Shown piece by piece: positions 46,844 through 63,883 of a DNA stretch of 64,000 nt (position 1 is the first letter of the stretch; the number at the start of each line of letters is the position of its first letter). The translations under genes and the position numbers were made by a program. The DNA lies in assembly GCF_030209445.1 (NCBI RefSeq), contig NZ_JARVSD010000016.1:186001-250000 (forward strand), read 5' to 3'. This DNA comes from Promicromonospora sp. MEB111. GTDB lineage: Bacteria > Actinomycetota > Actinomycetes > Actinomycetales > Cellulomonadaceae. The notes beneath the pieces are model-generated. The model was not told where the DNA came from. It saw only the letters and a program-made list of their open reading frames with translations, and did not search any database.

Positions 46844-47578
46844 CTAGACACGGACCGGTCTAGGCGCCGGGCCGACCCAGAAGGTGTCGGCCCGGCAGCC
46901 GACGTCGGCGACGAACAGCCGCTCCAGCCCCGTGAGGTCGCCGAGCCGCGCCGCCGCGACGAACGCGTCCAGCAGCGCGCGCTGCTTGCTCGCGAGCACC
47001 GTGCTGCGCCGCCCGGACACGATGTGCTTGCGCGCTCGGCTCACGAGCTGGCGCGCCGCCGCCTGCGAGAGCTGGACGATCTCGGCGATGTCCGCGTACG
47101 CGTAGTCGAACGCCTCGCGGAGCACGTACGCGGCGCGCTCGGTCGGCGTGAGGCGTTCGAGCAGGACCAGCACCGCGACGTCCAGGGCCTCCGCCTGCTC
47201 CGCGCCGAGCGCCGGGTCGTCGCTCGTGTCCACCGGTTCGGGCAGCCACGGCCCGACGTACGTCTCGCGCCGTGACCGCGCGCTCTGCAGCACGTTGACG
47301 GCGAGCCGCGTGGTGGTCGTCGTCAGGAAGGCGTGCGGGTTCCGGACGACGGTCCGGTCGGTGGTGTGCCAGCGGATCCAGGTGTCCTGCAGCACGTCCT
47401 CCGCCTCGGCGGCCGACCCGAGCATGCGGTACACGATGCGGAAGAGCTGCGGCCGAACCTCCGTGAAGACGGCGGCCGCGACGTCGAGCCCCGGCGCTGA
47501 ACTACCCGGCTCTGAACTACCCGGCTCTGAACTTCCCGGCTTTGAACTACCCGGCTCTGGGGCGCCTGATGCGGTCAT
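46844..47578 (-). CDS. ECF41-like sigma factor, C-terminal domain shortened
   Basis: The sigma2 region (FRIVYRMLGSAAEAEDVLQDTWIRW) and sigma4 region (LTPTERAAYVLREAFDYAYADIAEIVQLSQAAARQLVSRARKHI, read in parts) are clear. WLPEP at 111-115 is the ECF41 linker signature. ECF41 factors end in a SnoaL-like domain of about 100 residues that controls their activity. Here only its start (DAFVAAARLGDLTGLERLF) remains, and the frame stops at residue 244. The N-terminus carries (GSSEP)n repeats. The gene is convergent with the NPP1-like gene, 29 bp away, and divergent from two hydrolase genes. Confidence 0.85.
   Translation of the reverse strand: MTASGAPEPGSSKPGSSEPGSSEPGSSAPGLDVAAAVFTEVRPQLFRIVYRMLGSAAEAEDVLQDTWIRWHTTDRTVVRNPHAFLTTTTTRLAVNVLQSARSRRETYVGPWLPEPVDTSDDPALGAEQAEALDVAVLVLLERLTPTERAAYVLREAFDYAYADIAEIVQLSQAAARQLVSRARKHIVSGRRSTVLASKQRALLDAFVAAARLGDLTGLERLFVADVGCRADTFWVGPAPRPVRV
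47499..47558 (-). repeat. 15-bp repeat x4 in the ECF41-like N-terminus
   Basis: Units start at 47499, 47514, 47529 and 47544. Three are identical; one differs at two positions. They encode S-S-E/K-P-G repeats before the sigma2 region. Confidence 0.93.
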
Positions 47579-47765
47579 GAACTCACCTCGGGGACGGACG
47601 GCCGTCACAGCCGGCGCCCCCGACCGGTCGTACGTGTGAGGCCGATAAAAGCACGGCCCGGATCCCCTGTCCTGCGCTGCCCGAGCCGCCACCCGGCTCA
47701 GCAGACCCATCGAGATGCATCCACAGGCTCGGTAGCAGGCACGATGAAGCGAGCAAGGAGAAAAC

Positions 47766-48806
47766 ATGAGCGAGCACGTGCTCGAACCGGCGGCCCAGGC
47801 GTTCGCCGACGCGACCGCAAAGCCCCCGTTGCTCTACGAGCTGGGCGTCGAGGGAGCCCGCAAGCTGCTCGACGACGTCCAGGCGGCGCCGATCGAGAAG
47901 CCGGACGTCGACGAGAAGTGGATCACCGTCCCGGCCGACGTCGGCGACGTGCAGGTGCGCATCGTCAAGCCCGTCGGCGCCGGCTCGACCAGCCCGTCCG
48001 GCCGGCCGGACCTGCTGCCCACCCCGCTGCCGACCATCCTCTACGTGCACGGCGGCGGGTGGATCCTCGGCAACGCGGGCACCCACGACCGGCTCGTGCG
48101 CGAGCTGGCCGTCGGTGTGGGCGCCGCCGTGGTCTTCGTGGAGTACACCCGGTCGCCGGAGGCGCAGTACCCCGTGGCGATCGAGCAGGCGTACGCCACC
48201 GCGCAGTGGATCACCCGGCACGGCGCCGCCGAAGGGCTGGACGCCGCGCGGCTGGCCGTCGTCGGCGACTCGGTGGGCGGGAACATGACCGCCGCCCTGG
48301 CGATCCTGGCCAAGCAGCGCGGGGACGTGACCTTCGTGCACCAGTCGATGTACTACCCGGTGACCGACGCCGGGCAGGACACCGGCAGCTACCGCGAGTT
48401 CGCCGACGGCCCGCACCTGACGGCCAAGGCGATGGCGTGGTTCTGGGACGCCTACCTGCCCGACCTGGAGCGGCGCGACGAGATCACCGCGTCCCCGCTG
48501 CGGGCCACCGCCGAAGACCTCGCCGGACTGCCCGAGGCGTTCCTGGTCGTGGACGAGAACGACGTGCTGCGGGACGAGGGCGAGGCGTACGCGCGCCACC
48601 TGATCGCCGCCGGCGTCCCGACGACGACCGTCCGCTACAACGGCACGATCCACGACTTCCTGATGCTGAACCCGCTGCGCGGCACGGCCGCGACGACCGC
48701 CGCCCTGGAGCAGGCCGTCCACGTGCTGCGCAAGGCACTGGGCACCAGCACGACGTACAGCACCACCACGAACACAGCAGTACCGAGCAAGGGAGAGCAG
48801 TCATGA
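47766..48806 (+). CDS. HSL-type alpha/beta hydrolase
   Basis: This 346-residue enzyme has the HSL motifs HGGGWILGN, the nucleophile elbow GDSVGGN, a catalytic Asp near DENDVLRDEGEAYA and a catalytic His at IHDFLMLN. It should hydrolyse an ester or lactone. ATG 47766 follows an AAGGAG site. Its stop overlaps the next hydrolase ATG by four bases, forming a two-gene unit. The divergent ECF41-like gene may regulate it, since such factors usually sit next to their target. Confidence 0.92.
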   Translation: MSEHVLEPAAQAFADATAKPPLLYELGVEGARKLLDDVQAAPIEKPDVDEKWITVPADVGDVQVRIVKPVGAGSTSPSGRPDLLPTPLPTILYVHGGGWILGNAGTHDRLVRELAVGVGAAVVFVEYTRSPEAQYPVAIEQAYATAQWITRHGAAEGLDAARLAVVGDSVGGNMTAALAILAKQRGDVTFVHQSMYYPVTDAGQDTGSYREFADGPHLTAKAMAWFWDAYLPDLERRDEITASPLRATAEDLAGLPEAFLVVDENDVLRDEGEAYARHLIAAGVPTTTVRYNGTIHDFLMLNPLRGTAATTAALEQAVHVLRKALGTSTTYSTTTNTAVPSKGEQS

Positions 48807-51767: not shown

Positions 51768-53234
51768 ATGGAGAAGATTCTGATCGTCGGCGGCGGCTAC
51801 GCGGGCTTCTACGCAGCGTGGGGCCTGGAGAAGAAGCTCCGCCGGGGTGAGGCCGAGGTCACGCTCGTCGATCCGCACGGCTACATGACCTACCAGCCGT
51901 TCCTGCCCGAGGTCACGGCCGGCTCCATCGAGGCGCGGCACGTCATGGTGTCGCTGCGGCGCCACCTGCACCACACCACGATCATCGCCGGCCACACCAC
52001 CAGGATCGACCACGCGCACCGCACCGCGACCGTCCGCACCAACGACGGCGCCCTGCGGGAGATCGCGTACGACACGATCGTCGTCACCGCCGGCGCCGTG
52101 ACCCGGACGTTCCCCGTGCCGGGCATCGAGCAGGAGGCGATCGGCCTCAAGCACGTGGAGGAGGCCGTCGCGATCCGCGACGCGCTCCTGACGGCGTTCG
52201 ACCGCGCCGCCCTGCTCCCGCCGGGCATCGAGCGCCGCCGGCTCCTGACGGTCACCGTCGTGGGCGGCGGGTTCACCGGCGTCGAGGTCTTCGGCGAGCT
52301 GCTCTCCCTGGCCACCGCCCTGCTGCGCTCCTACCCGGAGCTCGGTCGCGACGACCTGGCCTTCCACCTCGTGGACGCGAACAAGCGCATCCTGCCCGAG
52401 GTCACGGACGAGCCCGGCCGCTGGGTCGTGCGGCACCTGCAGGAGCGCGGCGGGCGCATCCACCTCGGCACGCAGGTCGTCTCGGCGGCCGACGGCCGGA
52501 TCATGCTGTCGACCGGCGAGTCGTACGGCAACGGCCTGCTGATCTGGGCCGCCGGCAACGGCAGCAACCCCGTCGTCGCGAGGAACACCGACCTGCCGGT
52601 CGACGAGCGCGGCCTGGTCCGCGTCCGCGCGGACCTCCGCGTCGGCACCGACGACGAGCTCGTCCCCGACGCCTGGGCCGCCGGCGACAACGCCGCCGTG
52701 CCCGACCTGGCCTCGACCGTCCCCGGCGCGCGGACCGTGCCGAACGCCCAGCACGCCGTCCGGCAGGGCAAGCTGCTGGCGAAGAACCTGGTCGCCGTCC
52801 TGCGCGGCAGGAAGCCGAGGCCGTACCTGCACCACAGCCTCGGCGTGGTCGCCACCCTCGGCATCGGGCGCGGCATCTTCCAGTACAAGCGCCTGGTCAT
52901 CAAGGGCTTCCCGGCCTGGATCATGCACCGCGGCTACCACGTCCTGGCGGTCCCGACCTGGGAGCGCAAGGTGCGCGTGCTGCTCGTGTGGGCCTCCGCG
53001 GTGCTGTTCGGCCGCGACATCATCCCGCTCTCGACGGTGCAGTCGCCCCGGGCGGCGTTCCTCGCGGGCGGCGACCCGTTCGCGGGCTCGGGCGAGAAGG
53101 CCTCGGGCGAGAAGGCGGCGGCAGCCGCCGGCACCCCCGCACCGGCCACCCCGGCGCCGGCGGCACCGGCGGTACCGACCCCCGCCGACCCCGCCGTCCG
53201 CCCCGAGCTGAGCGTGGTGCGCGATGCGGGCTGA
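51768..53234 (+). CDS. ndh: Type II NADH dehydrogenase (NDH-2)
   Basis: NDH-2 passes electrons from NADH to quinone without pumping protons. This 488-residue flavoprotein has the FAD motif GGGYAG (8-13), TYQPFLPEV, a second dinucleotide motif VVGGGFTGVEVFGEL and the end motif AAGDNAAVPD. A membrane-associating helix lies near residues 400-420. The last 45 residues are an Ala/Pro-rich tail. AGGAGG precedes ATG 51768. Its end overlaps the QcrB paralogue by 11 bases, so the two proteins are translationally coupled and probably work together. Confidence 0.92.
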   Translation: MEKILIVGGGYAGFYAAWGLEKKLRRGEAEVTLVDPHGYMTYQPFLPEVTAGSIEARHVMVSLRRHLHHTTIIAGHTTRIDHAHRTATVRTNDGALREIAYDTIVVTAGAVTRTFPVPGIEQEAIGLKHVEEAVAIRDALLTAFDRAALLPPGIERRRLLTVTVVGGGFTGVEVFGELLSLATALLRSYPELGRDDLAFHLVDANKRILPEVTDEPGRWVVRHLQERGGRIHLGTQVVSAADGRIMLSTGESYGNGLLIWAAGNGSNPVVARNTDLPVDERGLVRVRADLRVGTDDELVPDAWAAGDNAAVPDLASTVPGARTVPNAQHAVRQGKLLAKNLVAVLRGRKPRPYLHHSLGVVATLGIGRGIFQYKRLVIKGFPAWIMHRGYHVLAVPTWERKVRVLLVWASAVLFGRDIIPLSTVQSPRAAFLAGGDPFAGSGEKASGEKAAAAAGTPAPATPAPAAPAVPTPADPAVRPELSVVRDAG

Positions 53235-54870
53235 CCTCCGCCGTCGGGCCGCCGGCCTCCGCGCCCGCGCCGCCGCGCTCGGCGAGCGGCGCGTGCAGCT
53301 GCACTGGTCCAACCTGTTCGGGGTCGTGACCTTCACGTGCCTGGTCGTCCTGACGATCACCGGCATCCTGCTGGCGTTCACCTACACGCCGTCGAACGAG
53401 CTGGTCACCTACACCGGGCCCTACGGGCCGCTGCAGGGCGCGACGGTCACCGAGGCGTTCGCCTCGACCATGCGCATCTCGTTCGAGCAGACGGGCGGCC
53501 TCCTGCTGCGCCAGACGCACCACTGGGCGGCGCTCGTCATGCCCGCCTCGGTCATCATGCAGCTGCTCATCACGTTCTTCACCGGCGGGTTCCGCCGGCC
53601 GCGGCGGCTGAGCTGGGTGCTGCTGGTGGCGGCGTTCGTGCTGGTGCTGGCCGCCGGCTGGAGCGGTTACGCCCTTCCCGACGACATGCTGTCGGGCACC
53701 GGCCTGCGGATCGTGGAGGGTGTGGTCCTCAGCATCCCGTTCCTGGGGACCTGGATCGCCGGGCTGATGTTCGGCGGGCCGTTCCCGGGCCAGATCATCG
53801 AGAACCTGTACCCGCTGCACGTGGCGATCGCGCCGGGGCTGCTCGTCGTCGTCCTGATCGCGCGGGCGGCGCTCACCCTGCGGGACGGGCAGGCCAAGCA
53901 GTTCCGGCCGGAGCCGGTCGCGTCGCTCGGGCTGCGCCTGTGGCCCGACGCCGCCTTCCGTGCCCTCGGCATGATGGGCATCACCGGCTCGGTGCTCGTG
54001 CTGCTCGGCGCGACCGCGACGATCAGCCCCGTCTGGACCTACGGGCCGGCGGCGGTGGGCGAGGTCGGCGCCGGGAGCCAGCCCGACTGGTACATGGGGT
54101 TCCTCGACGGGGCGTTGCGCCTGGTCCCGATGGGCTGGGAGACCGAGTGGTTCGGCTGGACGTGGACGTTCGCCACGCTGGTCCCGCTCGCCGTCGTCGC
54201 CGTGTACTTCGGCCTGCTGGTCGTCTACCCGTACGTCGAGGCCTGGGTCACCCAGGACCGCGAGCAGCACCACGTGCTGGACCGCCCCCGCCACTTCCCG
54301 GTCCGCACCGGCATCGGCGTGGCGGGCGCGCTGCTCTACGGCATCCTGTGGGGCGCCGCGAGCGCCGACATCGTCTCGACCCAGTTCAGCGTGAGCTTCG
54401 AGTCGGTCATCACCACGCTGCAGGTGCTGCTGGTCGTCGGGCCCGCGCTGGCGTTCGAGATCACGCGGCGGGTCTGCATCGGGCTGCAGCGCAAGGACCT
54501 GGAGATCGCGCTGCACGGTCACGAGACGGGCCGGGTGGTGCGGATGCCGAACGGCGGGTACGCCGAGATCCACCAGCCGGTCGACGACGCCGAGCGGGCG
54601 CGGCTGACCGTCGTCCCCGTCCCGGCGGCGCCGGGCCGCACGGACGGCAAGGGGCGGCTGCGCGGGAGCGAGCGGCTGCGCGGTGCGCTGGCGCGCGGGT
54701 TCGGCACGGGGCACGTGGTGCCGGCGGCGGAGCGCGATGCGGCCCGGGCCGGGGCGCCGGCCGCGGGCCGGCTGCTCGAGGGTGCGGGAGGCCGAGCCGG
54801 CGTCGCCGTCAGCAAGAGCCGGACCCGCGGGGCTATCCGCCCAGCGCCGCGAACGCCTCGTACACCATGA
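53224..54870 (+). CDS. QcrB-like cytochrome b, one heme site lost
   Basis: This 548-residue membrane protein follows actinobacterial QcrB along its length: THHWAALVMP, FFTGGFRRPRRLSW, LYPLHVAIAPG, the Qo-site PDWY (287-290), LQRKDLEIALHG and VRMPNGGYAEIH. In QcrB four His bind two b hemes. The first pair is kept (H99/H100 and H199). The second pair, expected at 113 and about 213-214, is Q113 and A213-R214. One heme site is therefore absent. No qcrA or qcrC is adjacent; the NDH-2 gene overlaps instead. The C-terminus from about residue 470 is a basic, Gly/Ala-rich tail, part of which overlaps a gene on the other strand. Confidence 0.88.
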   Translation: MRADLRRRAAGLRARAAALGERRVQLHWSNLFGVVTFTCLVVLTITGILLAFTYTPSNELVTYTGPYGPLQGATVTEAFASTMRISFEQTGGLLLRQTHHWAALVMPASVIMQLLITFFTGGFRRPRRLSWVLLVAAFVLVLAAGWSGYALPDDMLSGTGLRIVEGVVLSIPFLGTWIAGLMFGGPFPGQIIENLYPLHVAIAPGLLVVVLIARAALTLRDGQAKQFRPEPVASLGLRLWPDAAFRALGMMGITGSVLVLLGATATISPVWTYGPAAVGEVGAGSQPDWYMGFLDGALRLVPMGWETEWFGWTWTFATLVPLAVVAVYFGLLVVYPYVEAWVTQDREQHHVLDRPRHFPVRTGIGVAGALLYGILWGAASADIVSTQFSVSFESVITTLQVLLVVGPALAFEITRRVCIGLQRKDLEIALHGHETGRVVRMPNGGYAEIHQPVDDAERARLTVVPVPAAPGRTDGKGRLRGSERLRGALARGFGTGHVVPAAERDAARAGAPAAGRLLEGAGGRAGVAVSKSRTRGAIRPAPRTPRTP

Positions 54871-56266: not shown

Positions 56267-57457
56267 ATGTTGCGCCTGCCCGGAGCCGGCCCCGATCGCG
56301 CCGCGACGCGAACCACGAGCAGGCCAGTCCTCAGCAGACCGGCACGTCCGGCCCGCCGACGCCCCGCGCTCGCCGCCGCCGGGCTGCTCGCGGTCGCCGC
56401 GCTCGTCGCCGGGTGCGGGCTGCAGCTCCCCCTGGCGGGGCACGCGGACGACGGCGGCGCCGTCGTCGGCACGGAGCCGCTCAGCGAGCTGGAGCCGATC
56501 GCCGACCCGCGCGCGTGGACCGGCGAGATCACGGTGGGCACGCCCGAGCGCCCCGTCGACCCGGTCGCCGAGAACCCGCAGCCGGCCCTGCCCGCGACCG
56601 TCACCGACGCGCAGGGCACCGAGGTGACCGTCGCCGACACGAGCCGGATCCTGGCGCTCGACCTGTACGGCTCGCTCTCGCGGATCGTGTTCGAGCTCGG
56701 GCTGGGCGACAGCGTCGTGGGCCGCGACGTCTCGTCGGGCTTCCCGGAGATCGCCGGCCGGCCGCTCGTCACGTCCAACGGCCACGAGCTCACGGGCGAG
56801 GCGATCCTCGACCTGGCGCCCACCGTCATCCTCACGGACACCACGCTCGGCCCCTGGGACGTGGTGCTGCAGATGCGCGACGCCGGCATCCCCGTCGTCG
56901 TGCTCGACAGCCACCGCAGCCTGGAGACCTCCGCCGACCTGGCCCGCGCCACGGGCGAGGCGCTGGGCCTGCCCGCCGAGGGCGCGGCCCTGGCCGAGCG
57001 CACCGAGACCGCCGTCGACGACACGCTGGCGCAGGTCGCGGAGCTGGCGCCCGCCGACCCGGCCGTCCGGCCGCGCGTGATCTTCCTCTACGTGCGCGGG
57101 CAGTCAGGCGTCTACTACCTGTTCGGCGACGAGTCCGGGGCGGACTCTCTCATCGAGGGCCTGGGCGCCGTCGACGCCGCCGCCGAGGTGGGCTGGAAGG
57201 GCATGCGCCCGCTGAACGACGAGGGTCTGATCTCCATGCAGCCCGACCTCGTGCTGCTGATGACCGGCGGGCTGGAGTCCGTGGGCGGCGTGGACGGGCT
57301 GCTGGAGCAGGTGCCGGCCCTCGCGCAGACGCCGGCGGGCGAGAACCGGCGGTTCGTCGCCATGGACGACACGGAGATCCTGTCGTTCGGGCCCAGGTCG
57401 GCGGACGTGCTCGACGCGCTGGCCCGCGCGTTCTACGCGCCGGAGAGCGTCTCGTGA
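56267..57457 (+). CDS. hmuT: Heme ABC transporter substrate-binding lipoprotein
   Basis: This 396-residue protein is a lipoprotein: signal ending LVAGC with the lipid-anchored C50. It then has an FecB/BtuF-like binding fold with HmuT-type features (DTSRILALDLYGSLSRIVFELG pattern, VRGQSGVYYLFGDESGADSLIEGLG pattern, FVAMDDTEILSFGPRSADVLDAL pattern). HmuT binds heme outside the cell and hands it to the permease. GAGGGAG precedes ATG 56267. An N-terminal Arg/Ser/Pro-rich lead of 30 residues precedes the hydrophobic segment. Its stop overlaps the hmuU GTG by four bases. Confidence 0.92.
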   Translation: MLRLPGAGPDRAATRTTSRPVLSRPARPARRRPALAAAGLLAVAALVAGCGLQLPLAGHADDGGAVVGTEPLSELEPIADPRAWTGEITVGTPERPVDPVAENPQPALPATVTDAQGTEVTVADTSRILALDLYGSLSRIVFELGLGDSVVGRDVSSGFPEIAGRPLVTSNGHELTGEAILDLAPTVILTDTTLGPWDVVLQMRDAGIPVVVLDSHRSLETSADLARATGEALGLPAEGAALAERTETAVDDTLAQVAELAPADPAVRPRVIFLYVRGQSGVYYLFGDESGADSLIEGLGAVDAAAEVGWKGMRPLNDEGLISMQPDLVLLMTGGLESVGGVDGLLEQVPALAQTPAGENRRFVAMDDTEILSFGPRSADVLDALARAFYAPESVS

Positions 57458-58653
57458 CCCCGACGACCCGCGCGTCCGGGAGCCCCGCCGTCAGCCCGAC
57501 CGCGCGCCCACCCGTGCGGCCCGACGGCGACTCGGTCGCGAGCACCCTCACCCCCGGCCCCGACCCGGACGGCGCGAGCCGGCCAGGGCGCACCTCTGAC
57601 ACCCCGCTCCCGCCCGTCCGCCCCGCCCGCACCGCCGCCGTCACCGCCGGACTCGTGGTCGCGCTCAGCGTGCTGGCGGTCGTGTCCGCGGGGTCCGGGC
57701 AGCTCCACGTCCCGCCCGCCGAGGTGGTGGGGTCCCTGCTGCACCACGCGGGTCTCGACGTCGGCCCGACGCCCGCCCACCCGAACGGCGACGCCGCGCT
57801 CTGGACCATCCGGTTCCCGCGCGTCGCCATGGCGGCACTGGTGGGGGCCGCGCTCGCGACGGCCGGGGCCGTGATGCAGGGCGTCTTCGGCAACCCGCTG
57901 GCGGAGCCCGGCGTCGTCGGCGTCTCCTCCGGATCGGCCGTGGCGGCGTCCGTGACCATCGTGCTCGGGCTGACGGCGCTCGGCCCCTGGACCACTGCCG
58001 CCGCCGCGTTCGCGGGCGGGCTCGCCGCGACGTTCCTCGTCTACGGGCTGGCCCGGTCGGCGGGCCGCACCGAGGTGGTCACGCTGGTGCTCACCGGCGT
58101 GGCCGTGAACGCCGTGTGCGGCGCCGGCCTGGCGCTGACCACCTTCCTCGGCGACACGCAGGCCCGGGAGCAGATCGTGTTCTGGCAGCTCGGCTCGTTC
58201 AACGGGACCCGCTGGGCGTACGTCGCCGTGGTCGCGCCGCTCGTGGCGGTCGGCGTGATCGGCGCGCTGCTGCTGGCGCGCCGGCTGGACCTGCTGTCCC
58301 TGGGTGAGCGGTCGGCGCGGCACCTCGGCGTCGACGTCGAGCGCCTGCGCGTGCTCAGCATCGTCGTGGTCGCCGTGCTCACCGCCGCGGGCGTCGCGTT
58401 CTGCGGCATCATCGCGTTCGTCGGCCTCGTCGTGCCGCACCTGATCCGCATGGCCGTGGGCCCCGCGCACCGCGTGCTCGTGCCGCTCAGCGCGCTCGGC
58501 GGCGCCGTGCTGCTGCTGGCCGCCGACCTCGTCGCGCGCACCGCCGTCGGCTACGCCGACCTGCCGATCGGCATGCTCACCGCCCTGGTCGGCGGGCCGT
58601 TCTTCTTCTGGCTCATCCGCCGCACGCGCCGCACCGCGGGAGGCTGGGCATGA
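57454..58653 (+). CDS. hmuU: Heme ABC transporter permease
   Basis: This 399-residue FecCD-family permease has about ten membrane spans and the family patterns FPRVAMAALVGAALATAGAVMQG and FGNPLAEPGVVGVSSGSAVAA, plus FCGIIAFVGLVVPHLIRMAVGP near the end. The first 60 residues are a Pro/Ser-rich cytoplasmic lead. GTG 57454 overlaps the hmuT stop (GTGA), and its stop overlaps the hmuV ATG, so translation is coupled throughout. It transports heme inward together with HmuV. Confidence 0.94.
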   Translation: MTPTTRASGSPAVSPTARPPVRPDGDSVASTLTPGPDPDGASRPGRTSDTPLPPVRPARTAAVTAGLVVALSVLAVVSAGSGQLHVPPAEVVGSLLHHAGLDVGPTPAHPNGDAALWTIRFPRVAMAALVGAALATAGAVMQGVFGNPLAEPGVVGVSSGSAVAASVTIVLGLTALGPWTTAAAAFAGGLAATFLVYGLARSAGRTEVVTLVLTGVAVNAVCGAGLALTTFLGDTQAREQIVFWQLGSFNGTRWAYVAVVAPLVAVGVIGALLLARRLDLLSLGERSARHLGVDVERLRVLSIVVVAVLTAAGVAFCGIIAFVGLVVPHLIRMAVGPAHRVLVPLSALGGAVLLLAADLVARTAVGYADLPIGMLTALVGGPFFFWLIRRTRRTAGGWA

Positions 58654-59540
58654 GCGCACGGCCGACTGCCCAGCCGACGACGACAACCCGGCCGGCGCTG
58701 CTCACCCTGACCGGCGTCCGGGTCACCGCCGGGGACGCCGTGCTGCTAGACGGCGTCGACCTGGAGGTCCGCCCGGGCGAGGTGCTCGTCGTCGTCGGGC
58801 CGAACGGGGCCGGCAAGTCCACGCTCGTCTCGGTCCTGGCGGGCGACCGCGCCCCCGACGGCGGCGAGGCCGCCTGGACCGGCACGCCCCTGGGCGCCGT
58901 CCGGCCCGCCGAGCTGGCCCGGCTGCGCGCCGTCCTGCTCCAGGAGAACCAGGTCAGCTTCCCGTTCCGGGTGATCGACGTGGTCCGCATGGGCCGGGCG
59001 CCCTGGCAAGCCTCCGGCACACCCGCCGACGACGACGCCGTGGTCGCCCGGGCCCTGGCGGCCGCGGACGTCGTCGGGCTGGCCGAGCGGCGCTTCCCCA
59101 CGCTGTCGGGCGGCGAGAAGGCCCGCACCTCGTTCGCGCGGCTGCTCGCGCAGGACACCACGCTGCTGCTGCTCGACGAGCCGACCGCCGCGCTCGACGT
59201 GCGGCACACCGAGCACGTGCTGCGCCACGCCCGGCGGCGCGCGTCGGACGGCGGCGCCGTCGTCGTGGTGCTGCACGACCTGGCGCTCGCCGCCGCCTGG
59301 GCGGACCGCGTGCTGGTGCTCGACGGCGGCCGGGTCGCCGCCGTCGGCCCGCCCGCCGAGGTGCTGACCGCCGACCTGCTGTCCCGGGTCTACGAGCACC
59401 CCGTCGACGTGGTGCGGCACCCCGTCACGGGCGGGCTGCTGGTGCTCCCCCGCTACGCCGCCGACGCATGGATCGATGCATCGGCCGCCGCGACCCACGC
59501 CCACACCCGAACCGACGCCCTCAGCGAGGACCCCGCATGA
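58650..59540 (+). CDS. hmuV: Heme ABC transporter ATPase
   Basis: This 296-residue ATPase has Walker A GPNGAGKST (50-58), the signature LSGGEKART, Walker B LLLLDEPTAALD and the H-loop VVLHDLALAA. It powers heme import through HmuU. A Thr/Pro lead of 15 residues and an His-rich end (ATHAHTRTDAL) are minor oddities. The ATG overlaps the hmuU stop by four bases, and the stop overlaps the next gene by four. Confidence 0.95.
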   Translation: MSARPTAQPTTTTRPALLTLTGVRVTAGDAVLLDGVDLEVRPGEVLVVVGPNGAGKSTLVSVLAGDRAPDGGEAAWTGTPLGAVRPAELARLRAVLLQENQVSFPFRVIDVVRMGRAPWQASGTPADDDAVVARALAAADVVGLAERRFPTLSGGEKARTSFARLLAQDTTLLLLDEPTAALDVRHTEHVLRHARRRASDGGAVVVVLHDLALAAAWADRVLVLDGGRVAAVGPPAEVLTADLLSRVYEHPVDVVRHPVTGGLLVLPRYAADAWIDASAAATHAHTRTDALSEDPA

Positions 59541-60751
59541 CATCCCGCCACCTACCCCGCCCGGCGATCTCGCTGGTCGCCCTCGTCGTCGTGGTCGCCC
59601 TCGCGCTGCTCGGCCCGGTGCTGACGGCGCACGCCGCCGCCCGCGTCGCGGTGTCGGGGCAGCCCGACCCGGGCACGGCCTCGACGGTGCGTGTCTCGGG
59701 CAGCGGCTTCCAGTCGGTGCCCAAGGCGTTCGGCGGGCTCTACGTGTTCTTCGGGTGGGTCTCTGACCCGTCGGGCGGGTCGTGGGCGCCGAGCCGCGGC
59801 GGCGTGTCCGGCGACACCTACCGCTACGTGCCCGACGCCGAGACCGCGCAGAACGCGGGCTACCAGCGGTTCGTCGCCTTCCCGGGGTCGAGCACGGAGG
59901 CGGAGGCGAACGGCGGCACCATCGCCGCGGACGGCACCTGGTCCACCGACCTCGTGATCCCCGGCGCCCGCTTCAAGGCGGCCGACGGCAGCACCGTGGA
60001 CTGCACGGCCGTGCGGTGCGGCATCATCACGATCGGCGCGCACGGGGTGCGCAACGCGAACAACGAGACGTTCACGCCCGTGACGTTCGCCGGCTCGGGC
60101 GGCGGCGCAGGGTCGGGTACGGCGGACGGCGGCTCCGACGCGGACGACGGCGCGGCCGGGTCGGGCACGGGCGGCGCCGGCGGGACCGGGTCCGACGGCG
60201 TGAACGACACCGGTTCCGGCGACGACGACACGGAGCCGGACGCCACGAGCCGCCCGGCCAAGGCCAGCCTCGGCGTGGACCAGGCCACGGCCGTCGTGGG
60301 GCGCGTGCTGAGCTTCGGCGCACAGGGGCTGGAGCCCGGCGAGCAGGTGAGCGTCACGCTCGACGACGGCGTGGTCGCCGTCGGGCCGCTGGTCGCGGGC
60401 AACCACGGCGAGGTCGCGGGCCTCCTGGAGCTGCCCTCGGACCTGCGCACGGGCACGCACGTGCTGCGGCTGTCCGGCGCCTCCTCCGGCACGGCGATCG
60501 AGACCGAGGTGACGGTCACCCGCGACCCGGCCGAGGTGTCGGCCGCGGAGGCAGCCGCCGAGGCCGCGGGAACGGGAGCCGCAGGGGTCGGCGGCAACAC
60601 GGGGGCGAACGCCGACGGCACCTGGCGCCCCGAGGAGATCGCGGTGGGGATCGCGGCCCTGATGCTGCTCGTCGTCGTGCTCTCGTCGCTGGTCACGGCG
60701 CTGAAGCGCCGCGCGGACCGTCGCCGGGCGGACCAGGAGGCCCGCGCATGA
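59537..60751 (+). CDS. Anchored surface protein of the heme locus
   Basis: This 404-residue protein has an N-terminal signal (ISLVALVVVVALALLGPVLTAHAA). A domain begins VRVSGSGFQSVPKAFGGLYVFFGWVSDPSGGSW (here in parts) and ends ITIGAHGVRNANNETFTPVTFAG; the same domain recurs in the HtaA protein downstream. A Gly/Asp/Thr-rich linker, a second Ig-like domain (VDQATAVVGRVLSFGAQGLEPGEQVSVTL pattern) and a C-terminal membrane span with basic tail (LKRRADRRRADQEARA) follow. It is membrane-anchored and exposed. A heme-relay role is inferred from position. Confidence 0.85.
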   Translation: MTSRHLPRPAISLVALVVVVALALLGPVLTAHAAARVAVSGQPDPGTASTVRVSGSGFQSVPKAFGGLYVFFGWVSDPSGGSWAPSRGGVSGDTYRYVPDAETAQNAGYQRFVAFPGSSTEAEANGGTIAADGTWSTDLVIPGARFKAADGSTVDCTAVRCGIITIGAHGVRNANNETFTPVTFAGSGGGAGSGTADGGSDADDGAAGSGTGGAGGTGSDGVNDTGSGDDDTEPDATSRPAKASLGVDQATAVVGRVLSFGAQGLEPGEQVSVTLDDGVVAVGPLVAGNHGEVAGLLELPSDLRTGTHVLRLSGASSGTAIETEVTVTRDPAEVSAAEAAAEAAGTGAAGVGGNTGANADGTWRPEEIAVGIAALMLLVVVLSSLVTALKRRADRRRADQEARA

Positions 60752-62127
60752 GCCGCACTCCTCGCCGTCGGCGCAGCGCCACGACGGCCGCCGCCCTCGT
60801 GCTCACGCTGCTCCTGTCCGCGGCGACCACGGCGTCGGCCACGGCGTCCGACGACCAGGGCCCCCTCCTGCTCACGGTCACCGTGCCCGGGGACGAGCAG
60901 GCCCCGCCCGGCGAGGCCGAGGACGGCAGGCTCACCGACGCCGAGCTGCGCTGGGCCGTGAGCGTGCAGGCCGGCTCGGAGAGCCACCTCGCGGGGCAGT
61001 GCAACTTTCTGGTCGCGGGCCGCCCCGGTGCCGACGGCGACACGCGCGGCGGGCGCATCTGGACCGACGCCGACCGCACCCTCTACCACGGCACCGCCGG
61101 CGACGTTCGCGTGGTGCGCACCGTCGGCCGGGGCGCGGACGCCACGCAGCGCACCGCCACGTTCGGCACACGCTGCACGGCGCCCGACGGCCGCCCGGTG
61201 TCGTACGCCGCGGGCCGCACCACGGGCGCCGAGGTCGTGCTGACGGGCGGCACCGGCACGCGCGAGGCCGACGGCTCGGTGCGCATCCGCTGGAAGGGCA
61301 GCTTCACCGTGGTGTTCTACGGCGGCCTGGTCTACTGGTGGGTCACCGACCCGGAGGTGCGCCTGGACGCCGCCGGGAACGGCGCGCTGACCGGCACGCT
61401 CGGCGGCTACGGCACCGACCAGCAGGACATGACCCGCTGGGAGCCGCTGCCGTCGACCCGGGCACAGCTCGTCACCTTCACCGGACGCCGCCTCGACCCG
61501 GCCTCCCGCGGCGGGCACCTGGTGCCCGACTACTGCGGCGTGCGCACGAGCACCGGCGACCGCGTACCGCAGCTCCGCGAGGACCCGGCCGGGAGCTGCT
61601 GGGGCTCGTTCCCGCAGGCGTTCGTGAACTTCCACCAGCTCGTGGGCGAGCCCGAGTTCTGGTACTCCACCGGCACCCGGGACGAGATCAAGACGCCCGC
61701 GAACGTGAGCGTCAGCTTCGACGCCGCCGAGTCCGTCGGCAGCGCCGGCCCCGGCGACGGCGGCACGGGCGGCGGAGGCGACGGGGGCAACGGCACAGCC
61801 GCACCGCCGGCCGCCGTCCCGCCCGCAACCACCGGCCCCGAGGGCAGCGGCGGCGGTTCTCGCGCCGGCACGGGCGGCGGTGCCACCCGCGGCGGCACGG
61901 GCACCACGCCCGACGCCGACGCGGGCGCCGCCTCGTTCCTCCCCGTCGCCGCCGCGACCCTCGACGCCGCCGGCGCCGCCCTGATCCCCGACGGCCTGAT
62001 CCCGGGCGGCACCACCGGCCGCCGGCTCGCCGTCCTGACCGCCGTGCTGCTGGTCGCCGCGTCCGTGGCGATCCTCGGCCTCCGGCAGGGCTGGCTCGTG
62101 CTGCCCTTCCGGCGGCGCGACCCCTGA
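60748..62127 (+). CDS. Anchored surface protein, HtaA-related
   Basis: This 459-residue protein has a signal (TTAAALVLTLLLSAATTASA), a large extracellular domain starting LTDAELRWAVSVQAGSESHLAGQCNFLVAG and ending SCWGSFPQAFVNFHQLVGEPEFWYSTG, a Gly-rich linker and a C-terminal membrane span (LAVLTAVLLVAASVAILGL) with basic tail. The domain occurs in heme-locus surface proteins of other actinobacteria and looks HtaA-related, but I cannot assign heme ligands. It overlaps the previous gene by four bases. Confidence 0.82.
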   Translation: MSRTPRRRRSATTAAALVLTLLLSAATTASATASDDQGPLLLTVTVPGDEQAPPGEAEDGRLTDAELRWAVSVQAGSESHLAGQCNFLVAGRPGADGDTRGGRIWTDADRTLYHGTAGDVRVVRTVGRGADATQRTATFGTRCTAPDGRPVSYAAGRTTGAEVVLTGGTGTREADGSVRIRWKGSFTVVFYGGLVYWWVTDPEVRLDAAGNGALTGTLGGYGTDQQDMTRWEPLPSTRAQLVTFTGRRLDPASRGGHLVPDYCGVRTSTGDRVPQLREDPAGSCWGSFPQAFVNFHQLVGEPEFWYSTGTRDEIKTPANVSVSFDAAESVGSAGPGDGGTGGGGDGGNGTAAPPAAVPPATTGPEGSGGGSRAGTGGGATRGGTGTTPDADAGAASFLPVAAATLDAAGAALIPDGLIPGGTTGRRLAVLTAVLLVAASVAILGLRQGWLVLPFRRRDP

Positions 62128-62170
62128 GACCCCCAGTCCGCAGTCCATCCCCAGAGAGAGGCACGAACTC

Positions 62171-63883
62171 ATGACACGCAGCAGACCGGCGGGCCGTACG
62201 CGGCACCGCGGGCACGCTCTGATCGCCACCGGACTGGCCGCGACGCTCGGCACGGCGCTCGCCGCCGCACCGCTCGTCGCACTGACCGCGACCGCGGCGG
62301 AGCCGAGCGAGGTCACCGCCGACAGCGGTGACCTGGCCTGGGGCTTCCGTGAGAGCTTCCGCAACTACGTGGGGCGCCAGACGGCGGCCCTGCCGCCCAT
62401 CGGGGCGGTCCCGGTCGGCGAGCGCATCACGCTCGTCGCACCCGGCGAGTTCGACGAGAACGGCACGCCCGCCGCCAACCTCGACACCACCCCGCCGAAC
62501 GAGACCCTGCCCTACCTGCTGCCCGTCACGGGCGGGACGGTCACCGACGCGGACAACCTGACGATCGCCAGCGCCGGCGGCGCCGTCTTCCACTTCCCGT
62601 CGCACGCCTTCACGGTGACGGTCAAGGACGTAGCCGTGGTGGTCGACGGCGGCGTGGGCACCCTCGTGGGCGACCTCGCCGTCGAGATCCCGGAGAACAA
62701 CCTGGGCTACGAGCCCGGCACCTACGGCGGCGACGACGTGGTGCTCGGCGAGGTGGCGACCACCACGGTGGACGTCGCGGCCGACGCCGTGACCGTCTCC
62801 GGGACCGGTGTGACCCTGACGGCTGAGGGCGCCGCGGCGCTCCAGGGCTTCCTCGCCGAGGGCGCCGCGCTCGACGGCTTCACCGTGAGCGCGCAGACCA
62901 GCGCGCCCACGGAGGAGCCCGAGGAGTGGAACCCGACCGTGACGCTGTCGAAGGCGTCGGGGCTGGACCCCGACGGCGAGACCGTCACGGCCACCGGTTC
63001 GGGCTTCGACCCGGCGGCCAACGTGAACACGTCGGGCCGCCCGCCGGTCGCCGCGGGCGCGCCCACGGGCGTGTACGTGGTGTTCGGATCCTTCGGCGAC
63101 CCCTGGCGGCCGTCGGAGGGCGCCGGCTCGGGCGCCCGGACCGTGCTCGCCCAGAGGTGGGCGCTGCCGGAACCGTCGTACTCGCAGGTGAAGGCGGACT
63201 TCCCGAACGTGGCCGAGCAGCTCGTGCTGCTCAACCCGGACGGCACGTTCACGGCCGAGCTCGCGGCGGCGCCGTCGGACACCGCTACCGGCACCTACGG
63301 CGTCTACACCTACGCCGCGGGCGGGGCGGCGGCCAACGCCGCCCAGGAGCTGGGCATCCCGGTGACGTTCGCGACGCCGGGCGGCGAGGGCGAGGGCGAC
63401 ATCGACCTGGAGGTCACCGTGCCCGAGGGCGAGGACCCGGGCGAGCCCGGCGCGTTCACCTGGACCGTCGTGGGCGGCGCCGGGGCCGTGAGCCTCGGCA
63501 CCGCCGAGGCCGGGGCGGGCGCCCTGACCGCCACGGGCGACCTCAAGCGGGTCACGGTCAGCGACACCCGCGCGGGCGGTCCCGCGTGGAGCATCAACGG
63601 CACGGCCACCGACTTCTTCGCCACCGGTGGTTCGGCGTCCTTCCCGGGCAGCAGCCTGGGCTGGTCGCCGTCGGTCTCGGAGAACACCGGAGGCGCCGTC
63701 GCCGGCGCACTGGTGCGGCCCGGCGCGGGTTCCGGCCTGACCGCGAGCGCCACCCTGGTGTCCGCACCGGCGGGGCACGCGGCCGGTTCGGTGACGGCGG
63801 ACGCCGCGCTCGACCTGCGCATCCCGCTGGAGACCCCGGCCGGCGACTACGCGAGCGTGCTCACGCTCACCGCGGTGGGCTGA
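62171..63883 (+). CDS. htaA: HtaA domain heme-binding surface protein
   Basis: After a signal peptide (ALIATGLAATLGTALAAAPLVALTATAA), residues 54-67 read DLAWGFRESFRNYV, the HtaA domain start. The domain runs to about residue 225 and includes VFHFPSHAFTVTVKD, where a His could be a heme ligand with the Tyr of RNYV. The GSGF/VYVVFG domain of the first surface protein follows (residues about 255-400), then a further Ig-like domain. No membrane anchor is seen, so it is secreted or cell-wall attached. HtaA binds heme and passes it to HmuT. A good ribosome binding site (AGAGAGG) precedes ATG 62171. Confidence 0.88.
   Translation: MTRSRPAGRTRHRGHALIATGLAATLGTALAAAPLVALTATAAEPSEVTADSGDLAWGFRESFRNYVGRQTAALPPIGAVPVGERITLVAPGEFDENGTPAANLDTTPPNETLPYLLPVTGGTVTDADNLTIASAGGAVFHFPSHAFTVTVKDVAVVVDGGVGTLVGDLAVEIPENNLGYEPGTYGGDDVVLGEVATTTVDVAADAVTVSGTGVTLTAEGAAALQGFLAEGAALDGFTVSAQTSAPTEEPEEWNPTVTLSKASGLDPDGETVTATGSGFDPAANVNTSGRPPVAAGAPTGVYVVFGSFGDPWRPSEGAGSGARTVLAQRWALPEPSYSQVKADFPNVAEQLVLLNPDGTFTAELAAAPSDTATGTYGVYTYAAGGAAANAAQELGIPVTFATPGGEGEGDIDLEVTVPEGEDPGEPGAFTWTVVGGAGAVSLGTAEAGAGALTATGDLKRVTVSDTRAGGPAWSINGTATDFFATGGSASFPGSSLGWSPSVSENTGGAVAGALVRPGAGSGLTASATLVSAPAGHAAGSVTADAALDLRIPLETPAGDYASVLTLTAVG

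Follow-up and report, generated by a model that had tools for sequence, protein, structure and literature searches.

Described QcrB proteins and the Promicromonospora paralogue

In teaching, cytochrome b is presented as carrying two haems, bL and bH, a pair that enables the Q-cycle. The subject of this analysis is a QcrB-like paralogue of cytochrome b in which both ligand positions of haem bH hold other residues. It is encoded in a 64,000-nucleotide stretch of DNA from Promicromonospora sp. MEB111 (RefSeq assembly GCF_030209445.1, contig NZ_JARVSD010000016.1, positions 186,001 to 250,000 of the forward strand; the whole stretch is referred to below as the window), and its gene overlaps the end of a gene for an NADH dehydrogenase of the NDH-2 type. 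In normal complex III, haem bH and the QN site lie on the cytoplasmic side and haem bL and the QP site on the periplasmic side (PMC8523172, PMC8361435).

The QcrB of the actinobacterial bcc-aa3 supercomplex (7q21, 6adq, 6hwh) shares its fold, bL ligands, PDWY motif and C-terminal region with the window protein, which is 36% identical to 7qhm_B. The window protein differs in lacking the bH ligands, in a filled-in glycine position, in the loss of cytoplasmic-side residues, in having no adjoining qcrCA and in scoring below the NCBIfam cut-off. Orphan QcrB paralogues are already known: QcrB2 and QcrB3 of S. coelicolor (SCO7120, SCO7236) are likewise encoded by extra qcrB genes outside the qcr-cta operon, and QcrB3 is reported together with bcc-aa3 parts and Nar1 (PMC7931247). 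The orphan copies read here, five from Streptomyces and Kitasatospora plasmids (L146, L147, L149, L150 and L151, with no listed qcrA or qcrC within 5 kb) rather than S. coelicolor's own SCO7120 and SCO7236, differ from the window protein in having four His.

Loss of bH with retention of bL and the Qo site has also been engineered, in the H212N knock-out of R. capsulatus. (That is a laboratory change of one ligand; in the clade described here both ligands and residues around them have been exchanged in nature, and the exchange is fixed.) The study reports that reduction of bL persists in the double H212N knock-out, with no bH or Qi turnover, and that, in an asymmetric dimer, the bH of the partner is served by bL-to-bL transfer (PMC4330944). 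The NDH-2-like protein of the window resembles solved NDH-2 enzymes and differs from them in being a paralogue of its own, with a gene that overlaps a cytochrome b gene. A natural haem-bH-less QcrB family was not found in the literature searched (titles and abstract openings, with few subscription journals covered).

Haem-ligand positions of the window protein

The window protein matches the Pfam cytochrome b N-terminal domains (PF13631 at 6e-39, PF00033 at 2e-20) and scores 483 bits against the NCBIfam model of actinobacterial QcrB (NF050120), under its cut-off of 500. Residues 25-467 align with solved actinobacterial QcrB, and in these alignments Q113 and R214 occupy both bH-ligand positions (Table 1). 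H99 sits 14 residues ahead of position 113, and is likely to be the helix-B ligand of bL in preference to H100, because other paralogues in the multiple alignment have N, R or S in place of H100.

A preliminary description, made from the letters of the window without database searches, had pointed to H99/H100, H199 and PDWY as present and to Q113 and A213-R214 where the second His pair is expected; that reading is upheld, with the alignments placing Q113 and R214 at the bH positions. When the protein is aligned with the two other QcrBs of its own genome, as had been suggested there, both prove to be four-His proteins, with their bH ligands opposite Q113 and R214. The same description had noted that a correct alignment might place other histidines in the second-ligand positions. 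None is there: the ungapped letters 14 residues past H99 and 14-15 past H199 are Gln and Arg, which rules out a misalignment that hides other His. A sequencing or frame error behind the exchange is likewise ruled out by its occurrence in 33 distinct sequences.

An AlphaFold2 (AF2) model of the protein (pLDDT 86.6, pTM 0.84, from 40 aligned rows) has as its top Foldseek match the QcrB of the C. glutamicum supercomplex (7qhm_B; E 3e-31, TM-score 0.74 by query length). Superposition of the whole model is poor (root-mean-square deviation 14.8 over 512 columns for 7qhm_B and 3.7 over 436 for 9ftz_H), presumably on account of the loops and tail. A cysteine of the haem cn type was considered and set aside: C39 is near-invariant in the clade, yet its position differs from that of the b6 cysteine.

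Table 1. Features of the window discussed in the text, with positions counted from its first nucleotide
Feature	Position	Strand	Basis and remarks
QcrB-like cytochrome b paralogue without haem bH ligands	53224..54870	+	548 aa; domain matches, alignments, AF2 model
H99, helix-B bL ligand, kept	53518..53520	+	multiple alignment, codon read
Q113, replaces helix-B bH ligand His	53560..53562	+	codon CAG; clade counts in text
L134, replaces helix-C bH-side Gly	53623..53625	+	clade counts in text
H199, helix-D bL ligand, kept	53818..53820	+	multiple alignment, codon read
R214, replaces helix-D bH ligand His	53863..53865	+	codon CGG; spacing from H199 in text
PDWY motif, periplasmic quinol-oxidation (QP/Qo) site, kept	54082..54093	+	multiple alignment, codon read
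NDH-2-like dehydrogenase	51768..53234	+	488 aa; Pyr_redox_2; PDB matches 9mqy (6e-33), 5na1 (3e-29)
Overlap of the end of the NDH-2 gene with the start of the cytochrome b gene	53224..53234	+	11 bases; recurrence in text
Extracytoplasmic function (ECF) sigma factor gene, association only	46844..47767	-	PF04542 (Sigma70_r2), PF08281 (r4_2); 5-6 kb away from the gene pair
Alpha/beta hydrolase (Abhydrolase_3), at most a possible member of the module	47766..48806	+	Pfam match

Conservation, distribution and selection

A set of 135 distinct QcrB-like sequences was assembled, made up of 33 Gln/Arg proteins (that of the window included), 95 ordinary four-His proteins and seven others; L142, with four His but PPWY, was kept out of the set of 95 and counted with the seven. 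Gln and Arg stand at the bH positions in 33/33 clade sequences, which come from three family groups and two orders, and His and His in 95/95 ordinary QcrBs. The bL pair H99/H199 and the PDWY motif are present throughout the clade (33/33). Helix-C position 134, which we take to be the glycine that gives haem bH room in the glycine pattern of cytochrome b, is Gly in 99% of the 95 ordinary proteins and Leu in all 33 of the clade. The distance from H199 to the helix-D bH ligand is 15 in every ordinary protein (95/95); to the Arg of the clade it is 15 in 27/33 and 14 in 6/33. By this measure the ligand spacing is no longer held, as would be expected without a haem to hold. Because Gln and Arg are fixed in all 33 sequences, the exchange is judged to be no chance event.

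In Promicromonospora the bH-less gene was found in 12 of 13 genomes, in 13 copies; the thirteenth genome (G004, 83% complete) has the NDH-2 gene and the first cytochrome b codons, after which the assembly runs into N. Six other genomes from this family group and one Isoptericola metagenome-assembled genome also have copies. Family f19 has copies in ten genomes (10/100 of those sampled, at the strict threshold) and family f57, of another order in the same class, in 3/57. A plasmid QcrB from Microbacterium lies amid the f19 rows of the tree, which makes Microbacteriaceae the probable identity of this family. (Family, order and class were searched with strict score thresholds on samples of 101, 198 and 246 genomes, and ligands were read in fetched loci, so that these counts are lower bounds for a search that reached class level.)

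To follow the fate of other conserved residues, those shared by 98% or more of the 95 four-His proteins served as reference, and a residue was counted as kept if 90% or more of the clade has it. With the halves of the protein as assigned by us, 39/40 residues of the periplasmic (bL/QP) side are kept, as against 16/30 on the cytoplasmic membrane (bH/QN) side (Fisher p 8e-6), and 5/5 in the C-terminal region. The corresponding figures are 50/55, 22/40 and 9/10 when the reference threshold is 95%, and 56/67, 22/58 and 10/13 when it is 90%. F30, E34, H113, R116, N130, G134, H214 and H223 are among the lost residues, with R194 on the periplasmic side. Since the cytoplasmic side is the bH/QN half and the periplasmic side the bL/QP half, it appears that the window protein has retained bL and QP and has lost bH together with much of what marks the QN side. 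That haem bH and the QN site have both been lost is, on these comparisons, highly probable. (In the DE loop, after helix D, one Promicromonospora copy, L016, has an insertion of ~28 residues that is repetitive and rich in Ala, Gln and Ser.)

The ratio of non-synonymous to synonymous substitution (dN/dS) is 0.12-0.29 for the cytochrome b core in five pairwise comparisons; the C-terminal tail is looser, at 0.37-0.69, and the NDH-2, at 0.18-0.23 in three comparisons, resembles the core. Such values indicate that the cytochrome b core is under purifying selection. Together with conservation of the exchange in 33/33 sequences, they bear out the earlier suggestion that selection rather than decay lies behind loss of the matched ligand pair.

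Relatives with other ligand changes

A tree was made from 93 sequences, the other 42 of the 135, near-copies or fragments, being excluded by choice (four trait columns were removed, and the tree is unrooted). All 30 of its Gln/Arg rows lie on one side of one branch, with support 100/99. Their closest relative is L161 (His113, Ala134, Tyr214; support 98/94). Next to join are L076 and L077 (Gln/Ile) and L080 and L081 (His/Tyr), all without PDWY, and these 35 rows stand apart from the rest with support 100/99. The His/Tyr and Gln/Ile relatives resemble other stages of such a loss, or variants of it. It is plausible that the helix-D ligand was lost ahead of the helix-B ligand; L076 and L077 fit no single simple series.

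L138 (His/Gln) represents a separate ligand loss among the four-His rows. It and L142 (L138:2830-4563, L142:2899-4617) form a separate lineage with PPWY in place of PDWY and Val134; the helix-D ligand is Gln in L138 and His in L142, and both genes adjoin an ECF sigma gene. L076 and L077 (family f7) are flanked on both sides by ECF sigma genes; L080 and L081 belong to f13.

Pairing with NDH-2

The NDH-2-like protein of the window has the Pyr_redox_2 fold, and its top PDB matches are NADH dehydrogenases of the NDH-2 type. Its closest other copy in its own genome is 42% identical. An NDH-2 gene lies directly upstream in 23/33 Gln/Arg copies, namely the 13 copies from the genus, L024, L026, L032 and L055, plus six of f19 and f57; no NDH-2 was found beside L025, L027, L028, L068, L069, L070, L155, L158, L159 and L160. 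The NDH-2s beside cytochrome b are 64-92% identical to that of the window, and one genome (G096) also carries an unpaired copy at 68% identity.

Genes were called in 24 loci (23 Gln/Arg, and L179, which is the same gene as L161), and both genes were called in 23. In every one of these (22 Gln/Arg and one His/Tyr relative) NDH-2 and cytochrome b overlap on the same strand, by 11 bases in 16; since the gene caller is crude, overlap lengths other than 11 may reflect choice of start. The 11-base overlap given for the window in the preliminary description is correct.

For gene neighbourhoods, 23 case loci (22 Gln/Arg and the His/Tyr locus of G606; the 12 Promicromonospora genomes were represented by the window locus and the second G003 copy only) were compared with 20 control regions of 20 kb each, longer than the case loci and hand-picked at round coordinates in 15 genomes. 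Of the latter, 14 have a clade member and one, G606, the His/Tyr relative; most belong to f19 and f57. An NDH-2 homologue is near 13/23 case loci and 0/20 control regions (p 3e-5). The coupling to NDH-2 that had been proposed for the window thus stands as an overlapping pair in 23/33 copies and falls as an obligatory link, since 10/33 have no NDH-2 beside them; the Gln/Arg exchange, whose conservation had been named there as a check, stands in 33/33, paired or not. By these comparisons the NDH-2/cytochrome b pair is a real unit, and the cytochrome b can exist without NDH-2.

Ordinary QcrBs in the same and related genomes

The gene has as neighbours in the window NDH-2 and a phosphotransferase-like gene, and is not in qcrC-qcrA-qcrB order. 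Absence of adjacent qcrA and qcrC, asserted from the start, is confirmed. The full qcr operon that was looked for elsewhere is found as a ctaE-qcrC-qcrA-qcrB-sod-qcrB region on another contig, C31 (the window gene is on contig C32 of the same genome, G000); gene names in this region were given by eye from open reading frames and superoxide dismutase by Pfam Sod_Fe. Both other QcrBs of the genome are encoded on C31 and have four His each. On the stretch L004:7193-12103 their genes flank one for an Fe/Mn superoxide dismutase; across seven Promicromonospora genomes, 8/8 canonical qcrB loci examined for it contain this superoxide dismutase gene.

A further QcrB was present in 25/25 genomes checked, which include G251, G277, G164 and G281, with other altered types, and G606. 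It was read in 8/25 (G000, G125, G248, G285, G483, G575, G594 and G606), and has four His in each. A plasmid search matched 54 records, of which eight regions were read, all four-His; L152 adjoins Rieske and cytochrome c genes.

Proposed function and its alternatives

The reading favoured here, to which an even chance is given, is that the window protein would be a QcrB-derived, bL-only, quinol-oxidising cytochrome b, often fed by NDH-2 and working with the standard bcc complex. It is preferred because another QcrB is present in all 25 genomes checked and because an orphan Streptomyces QcrB occurs with bcc-aa3. NDH-2 (which does so without pumping) or another dehydrogenase would make menaquinol, and the bH-less QcrB would oxidise it at the QP site, with one electron for a Rieske cluster and one for haem bL. 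Because the QP site and bL are kept, this quinol oxidation with bL is considered fairly probable. The bH-less protein would be unable to return electrons to quinone by itself, the normal route from bL through bH to QN being gone. To this extent (for the protein alone) the earlier proposal that it runs no Q-cycle is supported by the loss of the bH ligands, the bH-side Gly and many cytoplasmic-side residues. It would most likely join or replace QcrB in an ordinary bcc complex, because no qcrA or qcrC adjoins it and its periplasmic-side residues are kept; electrons on bL would then pass to bL of a normal QcrB partner or leave at the periplasmic side, with a changed Q-cycle yield. Use of the standard QcrA and QcrC is a more tentative part of the scheme, somewhat below an even chance. 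A natural asymmetric bc dimer of bH-less and normal QcrB, with quinone return by bL-to-bL transfer only, and which with NDH-2 would tune protons per NADH, is a doubtful extension; if true, it would be the natural counterpart of the asymmetric cytochrome bc complexes that biochemists build by mutation. A conserved bH-less family, also short of much of the QN-side signature, would offer a natural test of the periplasmic half working alone and of the use in life of bL-bL transfer between the halves of a dimer.

Several observations weigh against this reading. We ourselves drew the line between periplasmic and cytoplasmic halves, from the established cytochrome b topology. R194, the sole periplasmic-side loss at the 98% threshold, might contact a partner subunit, and the K222-H223-T224 stretch of the DE loop is lost (kept in 9%, 0% and 6% of the clade), so that cytoplasmic-side contacts of normal complexes may be gone. 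NDH-2 is missing beside 10/33 copies, and where the cytochrome b stands unpaired, the ten genomes concerned have NDH-2 copies of at most 61% identity or, at E 1e-150, none. In genome G495, probably a Streptomyces, an NDH-2 of 68% identity lies close to a four-His QcrB, and the pairing is therefore wider than bH loss and not specific to it. (This stretch, L125, holds NDH-2, a WhiB-like gene recognised by eye, the four-His QcrB, an NmrA-like gene and a fumarate-reductase-like flavoprotein.) L076, L077, L080 and L081 keep the bL His pair and have lost PDWY; hence quinol oxidation need not be common to every relative. Since these bacteria often carry a second QcrB, its presence in 25/25 genomes is weak evidence. 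In R. capsulatus no complex was obtained of the fused symmetric bH knock-out, although there is an unfused bH knock-out (PMC4330944).

Two other functions have to be weighed. The protein could be a single-haem membrane sensor of redox state or quinol, with bL reporting on the quinone pool, an ECF sigma factor as output and no need for turnover. This would fit the ECF sigma homologues near 10/23 case loci and 0/20 control regions (p 6e-4), L076 and L077 with their bL ligands, no PDWY and sigma genes on both sides, and the absence of NDH-2 from 10/33 loci; it fits poorly with PDWY in 33/33, with 39/40 periplasmic-side residues kept, with the overlapping NDH-2 gene of 23/33 copies, and with a window sigma gene that is apparently truncated and 5-6 kb away. 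ECF sigma factors of the window's type, moreover, often adjoin oxidoreductases. A sensor is accordingly held unlikely, and slightly less likely still is a self-standing NDH-2/bL quinol oxidase, the strongest form of the route proposed in the preliminary description, in which bL would pass electrons to a periplasmic acceptor (O2, a metal or a small protein) without bcc. Conserved pairing with NDH-2, the absence of adjoining qcrA and qcrC in the window and the location of bL at the periplasmic side speak for such an oxidase. Against it are the 10/33 copies without NDH-2 and the lack of any family resembling a secreted redox partner among those recurring near at least three locus groups (by crude gene calls); its periplasmic-side residues, nearly all kept, are those of an ordinary QcrB, and another QcrB accompanies it in 25/25 genomes. 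The peroxide-type chemistry also suggested there found no support in the analysis.

Retention of haem bH through Gln/Arg or other ligands would be conceivable in principle, given that R. capsulatus H212K is reported to have a working His-Lys bH (PMC4807273). With both ligands exchanged, Gly134 replaced by Leu, the spacing slipped and further cytoplasmic-side residues lost, it is very improbable. Least probable of all, and scarcely to be entertained, is a decaying, functionless duplicate: the patchy distribution (10/100 f19 genomes at the strict threshold, 3/57 in f57) would suit decay, but the same exchanges in 33/33 sequences, dN/dS of 0.12-0.29 and 39/40 periplasmic residues kept would not.

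Other neighbouring genes

The ECF sigma factor of the window, which we assume to be of the ECF41 type (with a C-terminal SnoaL-like domain as the presumed hallmark), stops ~85 residues short of its L050 relative, and no SnoaL-like domain was matched in it by Pfam at 0.001; the gene may be truncated, with its C-terminal region gone. An NmrA-like protein homologue is near 7/23 case loci and 0/20 controls (p 0.008). The alpha/beta hydrolases are each near 3/23 case loci and 0/20 controls, which is not significant (p 0.14). A succinate dehydrogenase-like flavoprotein, considered as fifth member of the module, was dropped, being near 3/23 case loci as against 2/20 controls. Downstream, positions 56267-63883 hold a periplasmic binding protein (Peripla_BP_2, by Pfam) and, by eye, an ATP-binding cassette (ABC) permease, an ATPase and secreted proteins, a cluster that looks like one for haem or iron uptake.

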